Below are positions 3,576 to 48,496 of a stretch of DNA of 64,000 nt, piece after piece. The DNA is from Spirosoma validum. GTDB taxonomy: Bacteria; Bacteroidota; Bacteroidia; Cytophagales; Spirosomataceae. The position numbers were made by a program, and so were the translations under genes. The first letter of the stretch is position 1. Every line of letters starts with the position of its first letter. The DNA is taken from positions 186,001 to 250,000 of the forward strand of contig NZ_JACXAA010000001.1 of NCBI RefSeq assembly GCF_014699035.1, written 5' to 3'. The notes below the pieces were generated by a model. It was given only the letters and a program-made list of their open reading frames with translations. It did no database searches and was not told the origin of the DNA.

Positions 3576-3641
3576 CAAGAGCTTTGTATGTAAAAGGCCT
3601 TCTCATTATCTTGAGAAGGCCTTTTACATACAAAGCTCTTG
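3576..3641. repeat. 30-bp perfect inverted repeat, probable terminator
   Basis: The arms 3576-3605 and 3612-3641 are perfect reverse complements around the 6-nt loop TTATCT. The right arm ends 8 bp from the stop codon of the minus-strand gene at 3649, so a hairpin in that transcript would form immediately after the coding region. There is no clear U-tract beyond the stem, so termination is inferred and a dispersed palindrome is the alternative. Confidence 0.75.
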
Positions 3642-10314: not shown

Positions 10315-10381
10315 CAGAGGGCATAGGGTAAAAAAGGTCAATTTTCATTTATCCTATGCCCTTACCCCTATGCCCTCTGCC
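10314..10381. repeat. G-rich dispersed inverted repeat, copy 1
   Basis: The left arm reads GCAGAGGGCATAGGGTA (10314-10330). The right arm, near 10362-10380, is its complement with one extra base, and a second CCTATGCCC phrase lies between. It fills the space between the permease stop and the glgE stop. The same words recur at 11975, 45741, 46184 and 47982. Confidence 0.8.
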
Positions 10382-12415
10382 CTACACCTCAATCTTAAAC
10401 AAGTGCATCGGCAGTGCGTAGGGGTCCAGTTCAACGTAATTTTGTTCACCCTGCCAGATATACTGGGCGCCCGTCAGCAAATCACGAACGGTATACTGTT
10501 GATCGTGTCCCATACCTAACTGCCAGACAGGAACTTGTACTACCCCTACCCGCCGGTTATAGGCATCTGTATTGACAATGATCAGCAATCGATTATCGCC
10601 CGATACTTTTAGATAAGCCATAATCGCGTCATCGTTTACGTTGCAAAACGTCAGGTTATTTGTTGTTTGCAACGCTGGATTTTCGTGACGAATACGATTA
10701 ACAAGCGTAATCAGGTACGTCATCCTGTTAGTTTTCTCCCAGTCCCAATATCGGATTTCGTATTTCTCGGAGTTCAGGTATTCTTCTTTATTCGGGAACG
10801 GTACGTGTTCCATCAGTTCAAACGATGGACCATAAATACCATAATTACTCGACAACGTAGCAGCCATGAAGTAGCGAATCAGGAACTGCGGTTCGTGGCC
10901 ACCCTGTAAACTATAGGGATTAATGTCATGTGTCGTTGGCCAGAAGTTCGGGCGATAATAGTACTTCATTTCGCTCTGGGTCAATTCGGTCATGTATTGT
11001 TCCAGTTCGTATTTCGTGTTACGCCAGGTGTAGTACGTATACGAGTGCGCGAAGCCCCGTTTGCCTAACTCCTGCATCACCTTCGGCTTCGTGAAGGCTT
11101 CTGCCAGAAACAGCATATCCGGAAACTCTTTCTTCACTTCCGCAATGATCCATTCCCAGAAGCTGAACGGCTTCGTATGTGGATTATCGACCCGAACAAT
11201 GCGTACACCCCACGATGCCCACACCAGCAGAACGCGCTTCAGTTCTTCCCAGAGATTCTGCCAGTCGTCCGTCTCGAAATAAACCGGGTAAATATCCTGA
11301 TACTTTTTAGGGGGATTTTCAGCATACTGGATGGTTCCGTCGGGACGTTTCTTAAACCACTCAGGATGTTCTTTGGCCCAGGGGTGGTCAGGAGAGCACT
11401 GGATGGCGAGGTCCATGGCCACTTCCATGCCATAATTGGCTGCAATGGCAACCAAATGCTTAAAATCATCGACCGTACCGAGCTTAGGATGAATAGCATC
11501 ATGCCCACCCTCTTCCGAACCAATGCCATACGGGACACCGGGCTCACCGGGCTGGCAAATGACCGAGTTGTTCTTACCCTTGCGATGGGCCATGCCAATC
11601 GGGTGAATCGGGGGTAGATACAGTACGTCAAACCCCATTCCGGAAATGCGGGGCAGCAGCGCTTCTACATCCCGGAAGGTACCGTGCTGACCCTCTTCCC
11701 GAGCGGCTGAACGTGGGAAAAGGCAATACCACGTACTGAATCCAGCACGAGCCCGATCAACTTCTACGCCTAACTCATTCGCATAGCGGGTAACATGTTG
11801 ACGTTCAGGATGGCGATCGGCATAAAACGTGAACTGATCACTTTCGGCTACAGATACCGCTTCGTCGTAACGACTCTCAGCAGATACATCTGCCCCGGCC
11901 CGAAATAGCGCGGCCATTTCCCGCAACGCCTTCACATCCGCACTTTCCTCAACGGGTTCACTCTTTGCTTTTTTCCCTTTACCCTTTACCCCATGCCCTA
12001 TGCCCCCTGCCCTTGCCAGCATGCCGTCTACGTATTGCGCGCCAGCCAGTAATTCGCTCGTGATCCGTTGACCGTCGGCGACTTTGAGATGGATTTCATG
12101 TTGCCAGGATGCGGGGTGATCAATCCAGGCTTCGATCGTGTATACGTAACGGCCCTGTTTTTCAATCAGAAACGATGCTCCCCAGCGATCGTTCCCCAAC
12201 AACGCCATGGCCATTTCGGTCCACGTAGCATCATCAGTGTGCTTATACAATAGGCGGGCGGCAAGATAATCATGGCCATCGGCAAAAATGTCCGCTTCAA
12301 CCGCCACTACGTCACCGGGAATTGCTTTTATCGGAAATTGGCCTCCATCCAGCTCAGGCGATACGTGCTCGATGACCACGCGCGACTGGCCAGAGAGATT
12401 ATTGGGAAGGTTCAT
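10382..12415 (-). CDS. glgE: Alpha-1,4-glucan:maltose-1-phosphate maltosyltransferase
   Basis: GlgE transfers maltose from maltose-1-phosphate to a growing alpha-glucan in the cytoplasm (trehalose-to-glycogen route). The 677-residue protein is started at the ATG at 12415 (MNLPNNLSGQSRVVIE). A further 14 codons upstream are open but unlikely. The N-terminal domain (~1-200) precedes a GH13_3 barrel: VLYLPPIHPIG, RIVRVDNPHTKP with the nucleophile Asp, LAEAFTKP with the acid/base Glu, and TTHDINPY. Around residues 134-150 the chain contains a Gly/Lys-rich stretch (GGIGHGVKGKGKKAKSE) encoded by a copy of the window's G-rich repeat. No treS, maltokinase or glgB is present here. Confidence 0.93.
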   Translation of the reverse strand: MNLPNNLSGQSRVVIEHVSPELDGGQFPIKAIPGDVVAVEADIFADGHDYLAARLLYKHTDDATWTEMAMALLGNDRWGASFLIEKQGRYVYTIEAWIDHPASWQHEIHLKVADGQRITSELLAGAQYVDGMLARAGGIGHGVKGKGKKAKSEPVEESADVKALREMAALFRAGADVSAESRYDEAVSVAESDQFTFYADRHPERQHVTRYANELGVEVDRARAGFSTWYCLFPRSAAREEGQHGTFRDVEALLPRISGMGFDVLYLPPIHPIGMAHRKGKNNSVICQPGEPGVPYGIGSEEGGHDAIHPKLGTVDDFKHLVAIAANYGMEVAMDLAIQCSPDHPWAKEHPEWFKKRPDGTIQYAENPPKKYQDIYPVYFETDDWQNLWEELKRVLLVWASWGVRIVRVDNPHTKPFSFWEWIIAEVKKEFPDMLFLAEAFTKPKVMQELGKRGFAHSYTYYTWRNTKYELEQYMTELTQSEMKYYYRPNFWPTTHDINPYSLQGGHEPQFLIRYFMAATLSSNYGIYGPSFELMEHVPFPNKEEYLNSEKYEIRYWDWEKTNRMTYLITLVNRIRHENPALQTTNNLTFCNVNDDAIMAYLKVSGDNRLLIIVNTDAYNRRVGVVQVPVWQLGMGHDQQYTVRDLLTGAQYIWQGEQNYVELDPYALPMHLFKIEV
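11975..12014. repeat. G-rich dispersed repeat copy inside the glgE coding region
   Basis: The plus strand reads CCCTTTACCCTTTACCCC, then ATGCCCTATGCCCCCTGCCC, the same vocabulary as the intergenic copies at 10314-10381 and 46184-46276. It stays in frame with glgE and encodes the Gly/Lys-rich linker. Confidence 0.75.
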
Positions 12416-37915: not shown

Positions 37916-38192
37916 AAACCCCTAAATCTTCTGGAGGGGCAGGGCTGTTAAGTGCTAATCCCGTAGGGACGAAATCATTGTAGAAATAAGCAGAAAAAGT
38001 AACCACCAATATAGCTAGAACCCCGGAGGGGTGGCATCATGTCATTCCTCCGGGGTTCTAGCTATATTGGTGGTTACTTTTTCTATAAAGATTACACCCT
38101 TTTAGGGTTGACAATCAGAAGTTAACCGCCCTGCCCTTCAGGGAATTTTGCCTAAAAATGAGCAAAGTCCCCTTCGAGGATTTAGGGGGTTT
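37916..38192. repeat. Nested palindromic repeat cluster
   Basis: The inner part is a perfect 38-bp inverted repeat (37992-38029 with 38047-38084) around a 17-nt loop. Outside it, an imperfect pair reads AAACCCCTAAATC plus GGAGGGGCAGGG (37916-37943) on the left and, reversed, ACCGCCCTGCCC plus GAGGATTTAGGGGGTTT on the right (to 38192). The AAACCCCTAAATC word recurs at 39407-39480. The whole 361-bp gap between the hydrolase and the next gene is taken up by this. Confidence 0.8.
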
Positions 38193-39653: not shown

Positions 39654-41423
39654 ATGCTTCGAACGCACACTTGCGGTGAACTCCGCCTTGCTGACGCTAC
39701 TAAAACTGCTACGTTGACTGGCTGGGTCCAGACGATTCGCGATAAGGGTGGTGTGTTGTGGATTGACCTCCGCGACCGCTACGGCATTACGCAACTTCTT
39801 CTTGAAGATGGCCAAACTGCCCCGGAACTCTTTACAATTGCCCGCTCGCTTGGCCGCGAATTCGTGCTTAAAGCAACGGGAACGATCATCGAGCGGAAAT
39901 CGAAGAACCCAAACCTGCCAACGGGCGATATTGAATTAAAAGTTACGGCACTGGATGTACTGAATCCGGCCAAATTGCCACCATTTTTAATTGAAGACGA
40001 TACCGATGGGGGCGATGACCTGCGCCTGAAATACCGTTACCTCGATCTGCGCCGGAACCCGGTTCGCCGGAATCTGGAACTGCGCCATCGGATGGCGCAG
40101 CAAACGCGGTTGTACATGGACGGTCAGAATTTCATTGAGGTTGAGACGCCGGTATTGATCAAATCGACGCCTGAAGGAGCCCGTGATTTCGTAGTGCCAA
40201 GCCGCATGAATCCGGGTGAATTTTATGCCCTGCCTCAGTCGCCCCAGACCTTTAAACAGTTGTTGATGGTATCGGGATTTGACCGATACTACCAGATTGT
40301 GAAGTGCTTCCGCGACGAAGATCTCCGGGCCGATCGGCAACCCGAATTCACGCAGATCGACTGTGAAATGTCGTTCGTCGAGCAGGAAGACATTCTGAAC
40401 ATGTTCGAGGGACTGATTCGGCATCTGTTCAAAGCTGTCAAGGGAGTGGATCTGGACGAGGTGCCGCGCATGACCTACGCCGACGCCATGAAGTTCTATG
40501 GCTCCGACAAACCCGATACGCGGTTCGACATGAAGTTCACCGAATTGAAAGGTACGTTCGATACGGTTGACATGACGTCAGGCAAAGGCTTCAGCGTATT
40601 CGATTCGGCGGAACTGGTCGTGGGCATTAACGCACCCGGTTGCGCCCACTATACACGTAAGCAGTTGGATGAGCTAACGGAATGGATTAAACGCCCACAG
40701 ATCGGTGCGAAAGGCCTGATTTACGTTCGGTATAACGAAGATGGCTCCTTGAAATCATCGGTCGACAAGTTCTATTCGGAAGAGGATCTAAAAAAGTGGG
40801 CCGCTCATTTCGGTGCAAAGCCCGGCGATTTGATACTCATCATTTCGGGCGATGCAGCTAAGGCGCGTAAACAACTGAGTGAGCTACGTCTGGAGATGGG
40901 CAGCCGCTTAGGCCTACGCGATTCAAATGTCTTCAGTTCGTTGTGGGTGCTTGATTTCCCATTGCTTGAGTACGGCGAGGAAGAGCAACGCTGGTTTGCC
41001 ATGCACCATCCCTTTACGTCACCCAAACCGGAAGATATTCCGCTGCTGGATAGCGATCTGGGAGCCGTTCGAGCCAATGCTTACGATATGGTGATCAACG
41101 GCACTGAAGTTGGTGGAGGATCGATTCGGATTTTCAATCGTGATCTACAGGCCCGGATGTTCAGCATTCTGGGATTCTCGGACGACGAAGCGAAAGCACA
41201 ATTCGGCTTTCTGATGGATGCATTCGAATACGGTGCACCTCCGCACGGTGGGATCGCCTTTGGTTTCGATCGGTTATGTTCCATCTTCGGTGGCGAAAAC
41301 TCCATCCGTGACTTCATTGCATTCCCGAAAAATAACTCTGGTCGCGACGTCATGATTGATTCGCCGTCTGTCATCAGCCAGGCGCAGTTGAATGAGCTGA
41401 AAATTGCGACCGTAGCGAAATAA
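39654..41423 (+). CDS. aspS: Aspartyl-tRNA synthetase
   Basis: This 589-residue class II synthetase charges tRNA-Asp. The N-terminal OB domain ([27 protein letters not shown]), motif 2 ([23 protein letters not shown]), the bacterial GAD insert (~280-420) and motif 3 ([15 protein letters not shown]) are all present. The length is standard for bacterial AspRS. It has its own promoter. The stop codon adjoins a long REP-like palindrome shared with the convergent sulfatase gene. Confidence 0.97.
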
Positions 41424-41534
41424 AGGTAGCCTGGACTTTAGTCCGGGTAGTCGTCAGGCTAAGTTGTAGAGAACGAAAAATATTGATTACAACTTAGCCT
41501 GACGGCTACCCGGACTAAAGTCCAGGCTACCTTT
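41422..41534. repeat. 47-bp inverted repeat between convergent stop codons
   Basis: The arms 41422-41468 and 41488-41534 pair with one mismatch. They contain GGTAGCCTGGACTTTAGTCC and GTCAGGCTAAGTTGTA, each itself partly palindromic, with GTAG/CTAC tetranucleotides as in REP doublets (REPIN-like). The element begins inside the aspS stop codon and ends one base before the sulfatase stop, so it may terminate both transcripts. Confidence 0.88.
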
Positions 41535-45740: not shown

Positions 45741-45825
45741 CAGAGGGCAAGGGGTATGAGGCAGAGGGTAAGAACAAAAGAATTTTTAGTATTACATCCC
45801 AGGCCCCATGCCTTCTGCCCCACGC
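45741..45825. repeat. G-rich dispersed inverted repeat, copy 3
   Basis: CAGAGGGCAAGGGGTATGAG then GCAGAGGGTAAG (45741-45772) pair imperfectly with CCCAGGCCCCATGCCTTCTGCCCC (45798-45822). The right half lies inside the end of the XRE gene and supplies its stop and last residues (GAEGMGPGM). Confidence 0.7.
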
Positions 45826-46175
45826 TGTTTTAATTCTGCCAGCAGTTGATCGTTGGTTTGTTGCAGCAACGCCACCCGCTCATTAAGCTGGAAGAGCAAA
45901 TACTCTACGTTACGAAGGCGTTCCTCCGTCGTAATGGCAGCTGATGGTGAATCCAGCACTTTGAACATGAGTCCTTCCCCCCGAAGTAGCCAGTCGGCGT
46001 TGACCTGGGGATAGGCAACCAGAATCTTTTCGAGCGTATCGTAACGAGGTTTTAGCCGACCATGCAGAATATGATACACTTTTTCACCCCGATGCTCGCC
46101 TAATTGTCGGGCAAATTCAAGGACACTAATATTGAGCGTGTCGATCAGTTGTTGCAGACGAAAATGAATAGTCAT
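45792..46175 (-). CDS. XRE-type helix-turn-helix regulator with coiled-coil tail
   Basis: This is a 127-residue protein, started at the ATG at 46175 (MTIHFRLQQLIDTLNISVLEFA). Residues ~5-65 form a helix-turn-helix (FARQLGEHRGEKVYHILHGRLKPRYDTLEKIL, then VNADWLLRGEG as in phage-type repressors). Residues ~85-120 form a leucine-heptad coiled coil (RLRNVEYLLFQLNERVALLQQ). The C-terminus is encoded by a G-rich repeat. It diverges from the unknown gene at 46436 and probably controls the three plus-strand genes. Confidence 0.83.
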   Translation of the reverse strand: MTIHFRLQQLIDTLNISVLEFARQLGEHRGEKVYHILHGRLKPRYDTLEKILVAYPQVNADWLLRGEGLMFKVLDSPSAAITTEERLRNVEYLLFQLNERVALLQQTNDQLLAELKQRGAEGMGPGM

Positions 46176-46183
46176 AAATGGCC

Positions 46184-46276
46184 AAGGGCGGAGGGCAGGG
46201 GGCAAAGGGGTAAGGGCATAGGGAAACCCGCTCAATAGCTCCACCCCTATGCCCCTACCCCTTTACCCCCTGCCAT
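46184..46276. repeat. G-rich dispersed inverted repeat, copy 4, in the divergent promoter region
   Basis: The left part GGGCAGGGGGCAAAGGGG then TAAGGGCATAGGG (to 46223) pairs with CCCCTATGCCCCTACCCC then TTTACCCCCTGCC (46244-46274). Its four or more G-runs could also form a quadruplex. It starts 9 bp upstream of the XRE start codon. Confidence 0.82.
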
Positions 46277-46435
46277 TTTACACAAAACTCCGTAAAATTA
46301 GTTTATGTTAACCAGCAAAAGACTTTGTTTTCTACAGGAAACTGTGTATTTTTAAACCTGTAAACAGGGCCTTTTTAAAAGGCAAAAGGGACCTCAATAT
46401 GGGCCCCCTGCTTGAACAGTAAACAACAAATACTA

Positions 46436-47089
46436 ATGAACACACAAAACAAAAGCCAACTTTCGACAATTCAAAGCGGCAACGTACTGAATCCTGATCA
46501 AAAGATTAACGAGTTGACTGGTGAGGTGGTCAATAACGGGGCCGCCCGGCGGTACAAATATCTGGAGGGTCACCCCCGTCAGTATCGGTTCGATGCAAAA
46601 GAGGGTGTGTTCAATATCAATGGCTCAGAGAAGATGGGCCGTACCCTTACGTTCCAGCCAATTGCCTGGCGGATCTTCACGGATAACATCCTGAACATGG
46701 GTACCAAAAACTGGGCAGAAATTTTCTTCATCGATGAGAAAAACTGTGTTTCGGCAGTGTTGTTTCACGGCTATTCTGTCGATAATATTTTTCGACTCAT
46801 CGAACCACTTTATTACGATGACCTGACATTGGCCGACGTAGTAATCACGGCAGTGGCGGAAAAGAAAGAAAACGCAAAAATTCAGCCGAAAGGTATTTAC
46901 TACATCGCTACGTTTTCCTACAAAATGGCCGATGTGGAGAAGACTAATGAACTGAAACAGTTTTCGCAGGATGTAAAAATCTTCCGTCAGGAAACCCTTA
47001 CCGACATCGCCAACATCAAAACTGCGATGAACTATTATAATCCATTCATCAATCTGACCGAAGAGCCCGAACTCTTAGCAGCCGGTTGA
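46436..47089 (+). CDS. Unknown protein, first gene of the RecE-like module
   Basis: This is a 217-residue protein, started at the ATG at 46436 (MNTQNKSQLSTIQSG). A TTG eight codons upstream is also open. The protein is soluble and mixed alpha/beta, with ITFQPIAWRIF-like and AEIFFIDEKNCVSAVLFHGYSVDN segments. It does not match RecT or Red-beta by eye. It lies 104 bp upstream of the nuclease gene, and a role in DNA annealing or nuclease assistance is only inferred from that position. Confidence 0.72.
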   Translation: MNTQNKSQLSTIQSGNVLNPDQKINELTGEVVNNGAARRYKYLEGHPRQYRFDAKEGVFNINGSEKMGRTLTFQPIAWRIFTDNILNMGTKNWAEIFFIDEKNCVSAVLFHGYSVDNIFRLIEPLYYDDLTLADVVITAVAEKKENAKIQPKGIYYIATFSYKMADVEKTNELKQFSQDVKIFRQETLTDIANIKTAMNYYNPFINLTEEPELLAAG

Positions 47090-47193
47090 TTGACAGGATC
47101 GATTAGATTCCAGGATTCAGTCTCTACGTTTGACAGCAGCAGAGACTGAATCCTGAAGCTTTTTCATGTTTATCGTTCTAACTCGTTCATGCG

Positions 47194-47976
47194 ATGTTAC
47201 TAACTTCATCTGGTTCCATACAGCCTCCCCTTTTACCGAATGTCAACGACGATTATCGCTCGCTGACGCGGGTGTCAAACTCAGATCTGACACGACTGAA
47301 AGAAGAACACCTGGGTTACTGGTCAGTGCCATCCGCCCGGTTTATCCCAGAAACGACAAAAGTGTTTGGCCGGGCGTTTCATCAGCACCTGCTCGAACCC
47401 GAAACCGTGGGGACCGTTCTGAATCAGTTGCTGCCCGATCTGGTACCCGGATACCCTATCCTGGCTCCCAAACAGGCTCAACAACTCGATACGTTAACCC
47501 AAACCATTCGTCAGGACGCTTTCTGTCGGCGCTACCTGCGTTTGTCAGAGCGGGAACGGATTGTTTTGTCGACTGAGCCAACGACGGGCATCGCCTGTAA
47601 AGCGCGCCTGGACATGGTTTACACCAGCCCGAAACGCCGAAACGCACTGATTATTGATCTAAAAACAACGTCGGCCCGAACACAGGCTCAGTTTTTGGAG
47701 TCGTGCTACACCTATGATTATGACCGGCAGGCAGCCTTTTATGTCGACAGCCTGCGCCATGCCGATACGAACGAATGGGATTCGACCCGTCAGGTTCGAT
47801 TTATTTTCATTGGCGTGATGAAGCAACGCCCGCATCGCTTATTTGCCGTTGACGCTACGTCGATTCCGGGCTTTATCGAGTATGGTCGGAAGAAGTACCG
47901 GTTCTGGCTCCGCAAATGGCGTGAAGAGCAGGAAACGAATGTCAGTTTGGTTCCGGCCTGGAGTATGAGTGCTTAA
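47194..47976 (+). CDS. RecE-like PD-(D/E)XK nuclease
   Basis: This 260-residue protein has the motif series of phage exonucleases of the RecE/lambda-exonuclease group: H63 in FGRAFHQHLLEP, E128, D140 in CKARLDMVY, D155-L-K157 in LIIDLKTT, and Q179-xxx-Y183 in DRQAAFY. It would digest one strand of double-stranded ends. Length agrees with the nuclease domain alone. A strand-annealing partner is expected. Only unknown genes flank it. Confidence 0.85.
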   Translation: MLLTSSGSIQPPLLPNVNDDYRSLTRVSNSDLTRLKEEHLGYWSVPSARFIPETTKVFGRAFHQHLLEPETVGTVLNQLLPDLVPGYPILAPKQAQQLDTLTQTIRQDAFCRRYLRLSERERIVLSTEPTTGIACKARLDMVYTSPKRRNALIIDLKTTSARTQAQFLESCYTYDYDRQAAFYVDSLRHADTNEWDSTRQVRFIFIGVMKQRPHRLFAVDATSIPGFIEYGRKKYRFWLRKWREEQETNVSLVPAWSMSA

Positions 47977-47981
47977 TGATA

Positions 47982-48057
47982 GCGGAGGGCATGGGGGTAA
48001 AGGGCAGAGGGTTAAAACCCATTAACGTCGCTCTAGGCTCCATGCCCTCTGTCCCAT
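47982..48057. repeat. G-rich dispersed inverted repeat, copy 5
   Basis: GCGGAGGGCATGGGGG then TAAAGGGCAGAGGG (47982-48011) and, on the other side, GGCTCCATGCCCTCTGTCCC (48036-48055) form an imperfect pair. It fills the gap between the nuclease and the next gene. Confidence 0.75.
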
Positions 48058-48077
48058 ACTTTTAAACACAAATCGTT

Positions 48078-48425
48078 ATGAACGCGTCAATAATCAACCT
48101 GAGCCCGGCTCCGCTTAACTTCGATTGGGGGACTGACGGACTTGTGCTTTGGATTGAAGAATTAGATGGGGCCGACAGTTTGTCGGGTCAGATGAATGAA
48201 GTGATGGATCGAATTGCTTTTGCTATCGAGCTGCAAACCGGATGGGACCATCGTACGGATGGTAATACGCTGCATCCGCTCTATGGCTATCGGCTTTTGC
48301 TACGTGACGCGTCGGGCTGCTGGAACGCTGTTCAGACCGACGAAACCGGTCACTACACTGGGTTGACGCCTTTACAGGAAATGGATTATGAGATTGCTTA
48401 TGAGAAAGTAATGTGGATGGATTAG
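48078..48425 (+). CDS. Small acidic protein of unknown function
   Basis: This 115-residue protein (NLSPAPLNFDWGTDGLVLWI, YGYRLLLRDASGCWNAV) has no signal peptide or membrane segment. The family is not recognised. It is the last gene of the XRE/nuclease module, with a hairpin 36 bp after its stop. Confidence 0.68.
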   Translation: MNASIINLSPAPLNFDWGTDGLVLWIEELDGADSLSGQMNEVMDRIAFAIELQTGWDHRTDGNTLHPLYGYRLLLRDASGCWNAVQTDETGHYTGLTPLQEMDYEIAYEKVMWMD

Positions 48426-48460
48426 CCATGTTACGCCTTTCTACTTCTATTTATAGAGCA

Positions 48461-48496
48461 TAAATCGCCGGATTCTTAATAGGATCCGGCGATTTA
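48461..48496 (+). terminator. Terminator-like hairpin after the module
   Basis: The 13-bp perfect stem (48461-48473 with 48484-48496) has a 10-nt loop, then TTTT. Confidence 0.8.

Follow-up and report, generated by a model that had tools for sequence, protein, structure and literature searches.

The described systems closest to the locus reported here are the RecET module of the Rac prophage, lambda Red, and gene 32 of phage T4. According to PMC535899, the T4 gp32 operator begins with a folded 5' element, behind which comes a longer and less structured region that holds UUAAA repeats and the ribosome site; autogenous repression is reported there as demonstrated for gp32. We analyzed a four-gene module of Spirosoma validum, at positions 45741 to 48496 of a 64,000-nucleotide stretch of contig NZ_JACXAA010000001.1 (the window). 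Gene X is divergent from the plus-strand genes B, N and D (X<B>N>D>). The four open reading frames (ORFs) named in a preliminary description of this DNA are all present:

45792 to 46175, minus strand: X, 127 residues, XRE-type helix-turn-helix (HTH) protein, putative local repressor
46436 to 47089, plus strand: B, 217 residues, family without a Pfam model, predicted OB-like order, putative single-stranded DNA-binding or annealing partner
47194 to 47976, plus strand: N, 260 residues, RecE-type PD-(D/E)XK nuclease
48078 to 48425, plus strand: D, 115-residue acidic protein, family without a Pfam model

We read this locus, with a probability of about one half, as a DNA end-processing module of phage or plasmid origin that was domesticated once and in which B is controlled by X and by an RNA leader. 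No literature on the locus was found among the open-licence PubMed Central texts listed, judged by title and the start of the abstract.

B, N and D were present in all 36 Spirosoma genomes, and a close X homologue (at least 80%) in 34 of them; in the two genomes without it (G021 and G033), the core contig stops within B. Among 222 genomes of the family, D was found in 57, from six genera, with a single match in each except G011 (two contigs); the only second copy known lies on a separate contig of one metagenome-assembled genome (MAG). The D-bearing records belong to Spirosoma, Fibrisoma, Fibrella/Fibrivirga, Larkinella and Rudanella, together with one labelled Flavobacterium sp. SUN052 and two MAGs placed only to family or order.

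Gene order was surveyed in one core stretch per genome, in 58 genomes of seven genera. The order X<B>N>D> was complete in 49, and the other nine agreed with it except that X or D was absent or lay past the contig end: five g25 genomes (Fibrella/Fibrivirga) and one g209 genome (Larkinella soli) have B>N>D> but no X, one stretch from Spirosoma is cut within B, and one g194 and one g216 genome are without D in the stretch examined. Of the 11 loci examined outside Spirosoma (L102-L112), 10 also have one or more of the genes that flank the module in the window. The dN/dS ratio was 0-0.066 for B in ten pairs, and 0-0.065 for D, 0.039-0.144 for N and 0.028-0.257 for X in nine pairs (one saturated). 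Judged from these ratios, X, B, N and D are under purifying selection. From its distribution and constant order, the module appears to be a vertically inherited part of the core chromosome of Spirosoma and its sister genera. At locus L007 (2395-2771), X of G015 matches as two overlapping pieces and may be frameshifted; B, N and D are intact there.

Between X and B lies a candidate leader RNA. Both this leader and the X operators described below had been overlooked in the preliminary description. The leader has the following parts:

46361 to 46435, plus strand: B leader RNA, the putative 5' untranslated region (UTR); the covariance-model match continues to 46468 within B
46380-46384 with 46409-46413, plus strand: helix P1 of the predicted fold
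46388-46393 with 46402-46407, plus strand: predicted helix P2, with an A.C mismatch (46391/46404) in this species
46414 to 46468, plus strand: A/C-rich stretch spanning the start codon, predicted mostly unpaired, drawn from the folds and the 23-letter core

In 34 Spirosoma loci, the 60 nt upstream of B were 95% identical on average, and the regions upstream of X, N and D, with starts placed by alignment, were 23-28% identical. The first 300 nt of B were 75% identical in these loci. As a control, the 60 nt before ssb were 56% identical, versus 96% for the B leader, in the same 13 genomes. The covariance model of the leader (R1) was built from the core loci themselves, and the window's locus, which helped to build it, scored 125.8 bits (E 4.9e-29). 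The model matched 57 of the 222 family genomes at E < 1e-19, once in each and always at core B; 15 further matches above E 0.001 were chance-like. A run of 23 letters that ends with ATG, ACAGTAAACAACAAATACTAATG, was found in 57 of the 58 core stretches, the 58th being cut within B. A search of the region against Rfam 15 gave 41 matches up to E 5, none of which reached the gathering score. Nearly all of these were of microRNA type and fell on a G-rich palindrome, and one of long non-coding RNA type (E 0.35) touches 46437-46469. The leader thus appears to be an RNA element not yet catalogued in Rfam 15 and confined to core B.

The predicted fold of the leader is a hairpin of P1 and P2. We found that 90.9% of cells pair, far above the slid versions, and that both sides changed in 11 cells, a number as high as which was reached in 0 of 500 shuffles. 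Two P2 pairs changed on both sides with the pairing kept. Other measures were less favourable: these are two pairs out of 11, and the shuffles reach two in 399 of 500 cases; the pair types and the covariation score were no better than in shuffles (500/500 and 259/500, respectively); and the structure that RNAalifold itself proposes has one of 10 pairs changed on both sides. Since the pair count, pair types and covariation score fail to beat the shuffles, we regard the P1/P2 hairpin as likely, not proven. In addition, CCU stands before AAAAGG in 40 of 45 leaders (mean 12 and largest 23 in 500 shuffles), which hints at a second hairpin that would compete with P1.

The main rival to a regulatory leader is that this stretch has no specific ligand and provides strong translation initiation for an abundant protein. 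A-rich, unpaired translation starts are favoured in Bacteroidetes, and the start region of B is A-rich and predicted to be unpaired. PMC6847099 also describes Bacteroidetes as being without Shine-Dalgarno sequences, with initiation in Flavobacterium johnsoniae adjusted through mRNA structure and an A at -3. However, such preferences would fix few letters, not some 60, the region upstream of ssb is only 56% identical in the same genomes, and the conserved hairpin would be left unexplained. We consider this explanation unlikely.

Upstream of the leader, a putative B promoter overlaps a putative X operator:

46324 to 46327, plus strand: -33 element TTTG of the putative B promoter, from the promoter pattern in X-B gaps
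46347 to 46354, plus strand: -7 element TATTTTTA, from the same pattern
46332 to 46349, no strand: palindrome like the X operator (degenerate at this locus), set between the two promoter elements
46278 to 46295, no strand: a further palindrome of this kind, TTACACAAAACTCCGTAA, lying towards X in the gap

The promoter pattern, TT(T)G-spacer-TANNTTTA, was written after inspection of the loci; of 43 distinct X-B gaps, 42 contain it. In 41 of these the distance from the end of the -7 element to ATG is 80-81 nt, and in the remaining one it is 78 nt, so that the leader would make up about the whole 5' UTR. The operator-like consensus is near TTACACA-N4-TGTGTAA. At the -33/-7 site, the palindrome keeps at least 10 of 14 half-site letters in 52 of the 58 loci and 6-8 in the other six. 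These six are the six genomes without X beside B, and all six keep the leader. In the five Fibrella/Fibrivirga genomes, both X (searched for around the locus) and the operator are gone while the leader is kept; X-like matches further downstream in two of these genomes are XRE-S24 proteins. One genome fits this pattern poorly: Larkinella soli is without X, and its operator is half-decayed (10/14 letters, 3/7 symmetric, 14 nt further upstream). The half-decayed palindrome rules it out as a clean second co-loss of X and operator, so that the loss of both is seen in one lineage.

X matched HTH_19 at E 2.5e-4 (21.3 bits, below the curated cut-off of 30.2) and a PHROG transcriptional regulator at E 2.2e-5. 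The preliminary description of X as a repressor with a coiled coil holds for the XRE-type HTH, the HTH_19 match being below the cut-off, and the coiled coil was judged by eye. A relaxed operator pattern had 15 matches in Spirosoma, all in the X-B gap, in 13 of 19 Spirosoma genomes; the single match outside Spirosoma was in a genome that belongs to another order. In the window's own genome, whose operator is degenerate, neither the exact symmetric operator nor the relaxed pattern had a match. A regulon was ruled out, as the relaxed pattern is limited to the X-B gap in Spirosoma, and X therefore looks local, not SOS-wide. Taken from sequence comparison, X looks like a dedicated and dispensable repressor that would act on B, the leader being kept where X is missing.

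A paralogue of X in the same genomes has an HTH region 38-51% identical to that of X. This XRE-S24 protein (S24 type checked in L134, L137, L174 and L176) is divergent from a gene that reads as a Y-family DNA polymerase (L134 3972-6065, L137 4634-6726), and the pair looks like an SOS-type switch. The gap of the S24 gene carries its own palindrome, TAATACAAG...CTTGTATTA (L134 and L137). The two palindromes differ, which rules out a shared operator.

The loss of X and its operator also bears on the possibility that the conserved stretch acts as DNA, as a site for another regulator or a host factor downstream of the promoter. The letters predicted to be unpaired are conserved near-perfectly and the covariation is modest, as a DNA site would have it. 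On the other hand, two P2 pairs change on both sides with pairing kept, the stretch runs from about the putative transcript start to past the start codon, and it is retained where X and the operator are gone. A DNA site is quite unlikely in our view.

N was assigned from both sequence families and active-site residues. It matched DUF3799 in Pfam at 56 bits (cut-off 26), as well as PDDEXK_1, and exonuclease VIII in PHROG at E 2.5e-29. In a survey of 81 core loci, in which some genomes were counted twice, D140, D155, K157, Q179 and Y183 were identical in all 81 and H63 was kept in 80. Position 128, listed as a glutamate motif residue in the preliminary description, is E in 32 loci and D in 49, and so is acidic with no fixed glutamate; the other motif residues listed there were borne out. 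By these residues, N is a RecE-type PD-(D/E)XK nuclease that retains its active site. RecT (PF03837) was found in 0 of 39 genomes (25 Spirosoma, 14 from other families), other annealing families not having been searched for in genomes, and the same search was positive in 5 of 14 control genomes. The absence of recT reported earlier for the window therefore extends to its genome and to all those searched, and B would fill the place of the RecT partner beside N.

B is predicted to have an OB-like order. Among 53 B members, Pfam gave no convincing match and no match to single-stranded DNA-binding protein (SSB). An AlphaFold (AF2) model built from the 53 sequences (pLDDT 82, pTM 0.75) reads as strands, helix, strands, an order that fits the OB fold. 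The 50 PDB chains listed for this model include 14 SSBs, along with RPA and PrgE, and 22 matches in BFVD pass E 0.001, all of them unnamed or uncharacterised. Several results weigh against this assignment: some 23 of those 50 PDB chains belong to DNA polymerase epsilon, the PDB fold matches are not significant (best E 0.024, highest listed probability 0.85), and hhalign of B against 18 SSBs of the clade found no profile similarity (probability about 0.3%). The profile comparison rules out B as a canonical SSB (PF00436), and the window's genome retains an ssb of its own elsewhere, with one SSB match. The PHROG annotation DNA repair protein (phrog_5429) was set aside as too weak, with 4 of 53 members matching at best E 0.0087. 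From the model and its position, B may be a single-stranded DNA-binding or annealing partner of N.

Alternatively, B could be a true single-strand annealing protein (SSAP) of a new fold class and not merely SSB-like. Its position is that of RecT beside a RecE-type nuclease in genomes free of RecT, and an N relative stands downstream of many mobile B copies. The predicted OB-like order and the lack of a convincing Pfam match in the 53 members point the other way, and we hold the SSAP reading to be possible but well short of even odds. The two readings overlap, since T7 gp2.5 is an OB protein able to anneal. The earlier suggestion that the first plus-strand gene sits where an annealing protein would be expected gains weight from the absence of RecT; given the OB-like predicted order, the chances of an SSB-like protein there are no lower.

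The origin of the module was traced through its mobile relatives. B relatives were found in IMG/VR contigs, 15 plasmid records, many genomes and other non-core loci, and many of these mobile copies have an N relative downstream. RecE-like N relatives also occur in viral contigs and plasmid-like loci. In the ten of the loci L031-L045 that have both genes, identity to the window's proteins is 71-85% for B and only 30-38% for N. The B profile matched 4 of 395 genomes in a sample of the phylum. In a tree of 102 B proteins, where core was defined as a locus that bears the leader, all 56 leader-bearing rows and three mobile rows formed one 59-row clade (support 99/97) inside mobile B. Some observations weigh against our overall reading of the locus: the core label requires three changes on the tree, not one; the tree is midpoint-rooted and has long branches; and mobile B copies are without the leader (0 of 47 mobile or divergent loci, one match of E 0.75 aside). 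The three changes could be, for example, one gain and two losses, and the simplest reading of these sequences is a single domestication, after which copies escaped to mobile elements.

A short insertion, GGPSHG, is common to B of L073 (5' end) and of L050 (9543-10211), one core and one mobile. In other Spirosomaceae genera, L113 (6396-11092), L115, L116, L118, L119 and L120 carry a divergent B (36-43%) near an X-like XRE protein (31-43%), and several of them add a protein of about 200 residues and one that reads as PIN-like. These may represent a related locus with a different nuclease.

That the module is a remnant of a decayed or defective prophage is very improbable. The viral and plasmid-like relatives of B and N would fit such a remnant. 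However, the same genes in the same order are found in seven genera and are under purifying selection, and a remnant is contradicted by the presence of B, N and D in every Spirosoma genome. Reading through the ORFs between 38 and 56 kb by eye (six proteins were scanned with Pfam) revealed no integrase or phage structural gene, in agreement with the preliminary description, and the flanking ORFs read as galU, a kinase, aspS and a sulfatase. D had no match in the phage or the plasmid collection, and B had none in the phage collection.

An anti-phage defence unit is improbable as well. A nuclease with a small uncharacterised protein and a repressor is a common defence layout, which the module resembles, and a PADLOC scan of the four proteins gave a weak restriction-enzyme match for D (E 0.015). 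This match was the sole one. Defence systems are usually patchy in distribution, and the presence of B, N and D in 36 of 36 Spirosoma genomes therefore disfavours a defence unit.

Of the three options raised in the preliminary description, neither the decayed prophage nor the defence unit found support: the genes are adjacent in order across 58 genomes of seven genera and are not confined to prophages. The domesticated recombination unit fits the single gene order, shared flanks, purifying selection, intact nuclease residues and the single clade of leader-bearing B.

D has a pI of 4.1, with 19 acidic and 5 basic residues. XhoI-type Pfam matches were found in 11 of 52 D members (best E 0.05, weak), and a fold search gave no usable match (best E 0.48). 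One further feature lies between B and N:

47111 to 47164, plus strand: hairpin followed by a T-run, folding at -26.2 kcal/mol

Many, though not all, orthologous B-N gaps have a strong hairpin, and their sequences are unrelated. A possible function of the predicted hairpin is that of an attenuator.

The G-rich palindromes proposed earlier as borders of the module are real (inverted repeat 46194-46274, 93%). The G-rich word occurs 20 times in the window versus 3.2 expected, with two further clusters far from the module (10317-10384 and 11975-12014). In the 34 Spirosoma loci, the word was found in the X-B gap in three and in the N-D gap in three, the window's species included. The palindromes are thus a dispersed repeat nearly confined to this species, which rules them out as borders. 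Long near-perfect inverted repeats are also present in the window at 41422-41534, 37992-38084 and 3576-3641 (arms of 47, 46 and 30 nt, respectively).

We propose the following mechanism for the domesticated module. Domestication would have preceded the split of Spirosoma, Fibrisoma, Fibrella/Fibrivirga, Larkinella and Rudanella. N would expose single strands, 5'-3' by analogy, and B, with its predicted OB fold, would coat and possibly anneal these strands in RecT's place, in recombination or repair. D would be an acidic accessory inherited along with them, possibly serving as a brake or an adaptor. X would repress transcription of B at the palindrome inside the putative promoter, and the leader, a hairpin followed by the unpaired A/C-rich start region, would control B translation. 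Such control might be autogenous, most simply through binding of surplus B, as with phage T4 gp32. A cellular circuit of the gp32 type, in which B senses its own free level through the leader and single-stranded DNA that titrates B switches on the exonuclease-partner operon, is a tentative extension that we think rather unlikely.

The module seems a clear case of phage-type recombination genes that became a fixed part of a bacterial clade, and its repressor, operator and leader are now precisely located. It adds two families without Pfam models (B and D), a RecE-type nuclease with a non-RecT partner, and an RNA leader more conserved than the gene behind it. Should the leader respond to B, a sensor of single-stranded DNA level would exist in nature outside phages, in a bacterial core genome.

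Compared with known systems, the module resembles RecET and lambda Red in having a RecE-type PD-(D/E)XK nuclease beside a small, presumed DNA-binding partner. It differs from them in that RecT is absent, the partner is without a Pfam model and has a predicted OB-like order, and the locus is a fixed chromosomal one with its own repressor, an RNA leader and the extra gene D. B would share single-strand binding with the bacterial SSB (PF00436), but has neither sequence nor profile similarity to it. X is akin to the XRE-S24 regulator in its HTH region, but is without the S24 domain and goes with a different palindrome. The likeness to gp32 of T4 and RB69 lies in an OB-type protein and in a folded 5' mRNA element followed by a long unpaired A-rich start stretch, all of them predicted here. 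The T4 element is a pseudoknot with UUAAA/UAAA repeats, whereas the B leader is modelled as a plain hairpin (only nested helices were modelled) with A/C-rich letters. Finally, gp32 is a phage protein for which autogenous repression was shown, while B is cellular and its autogenous control is proposed.

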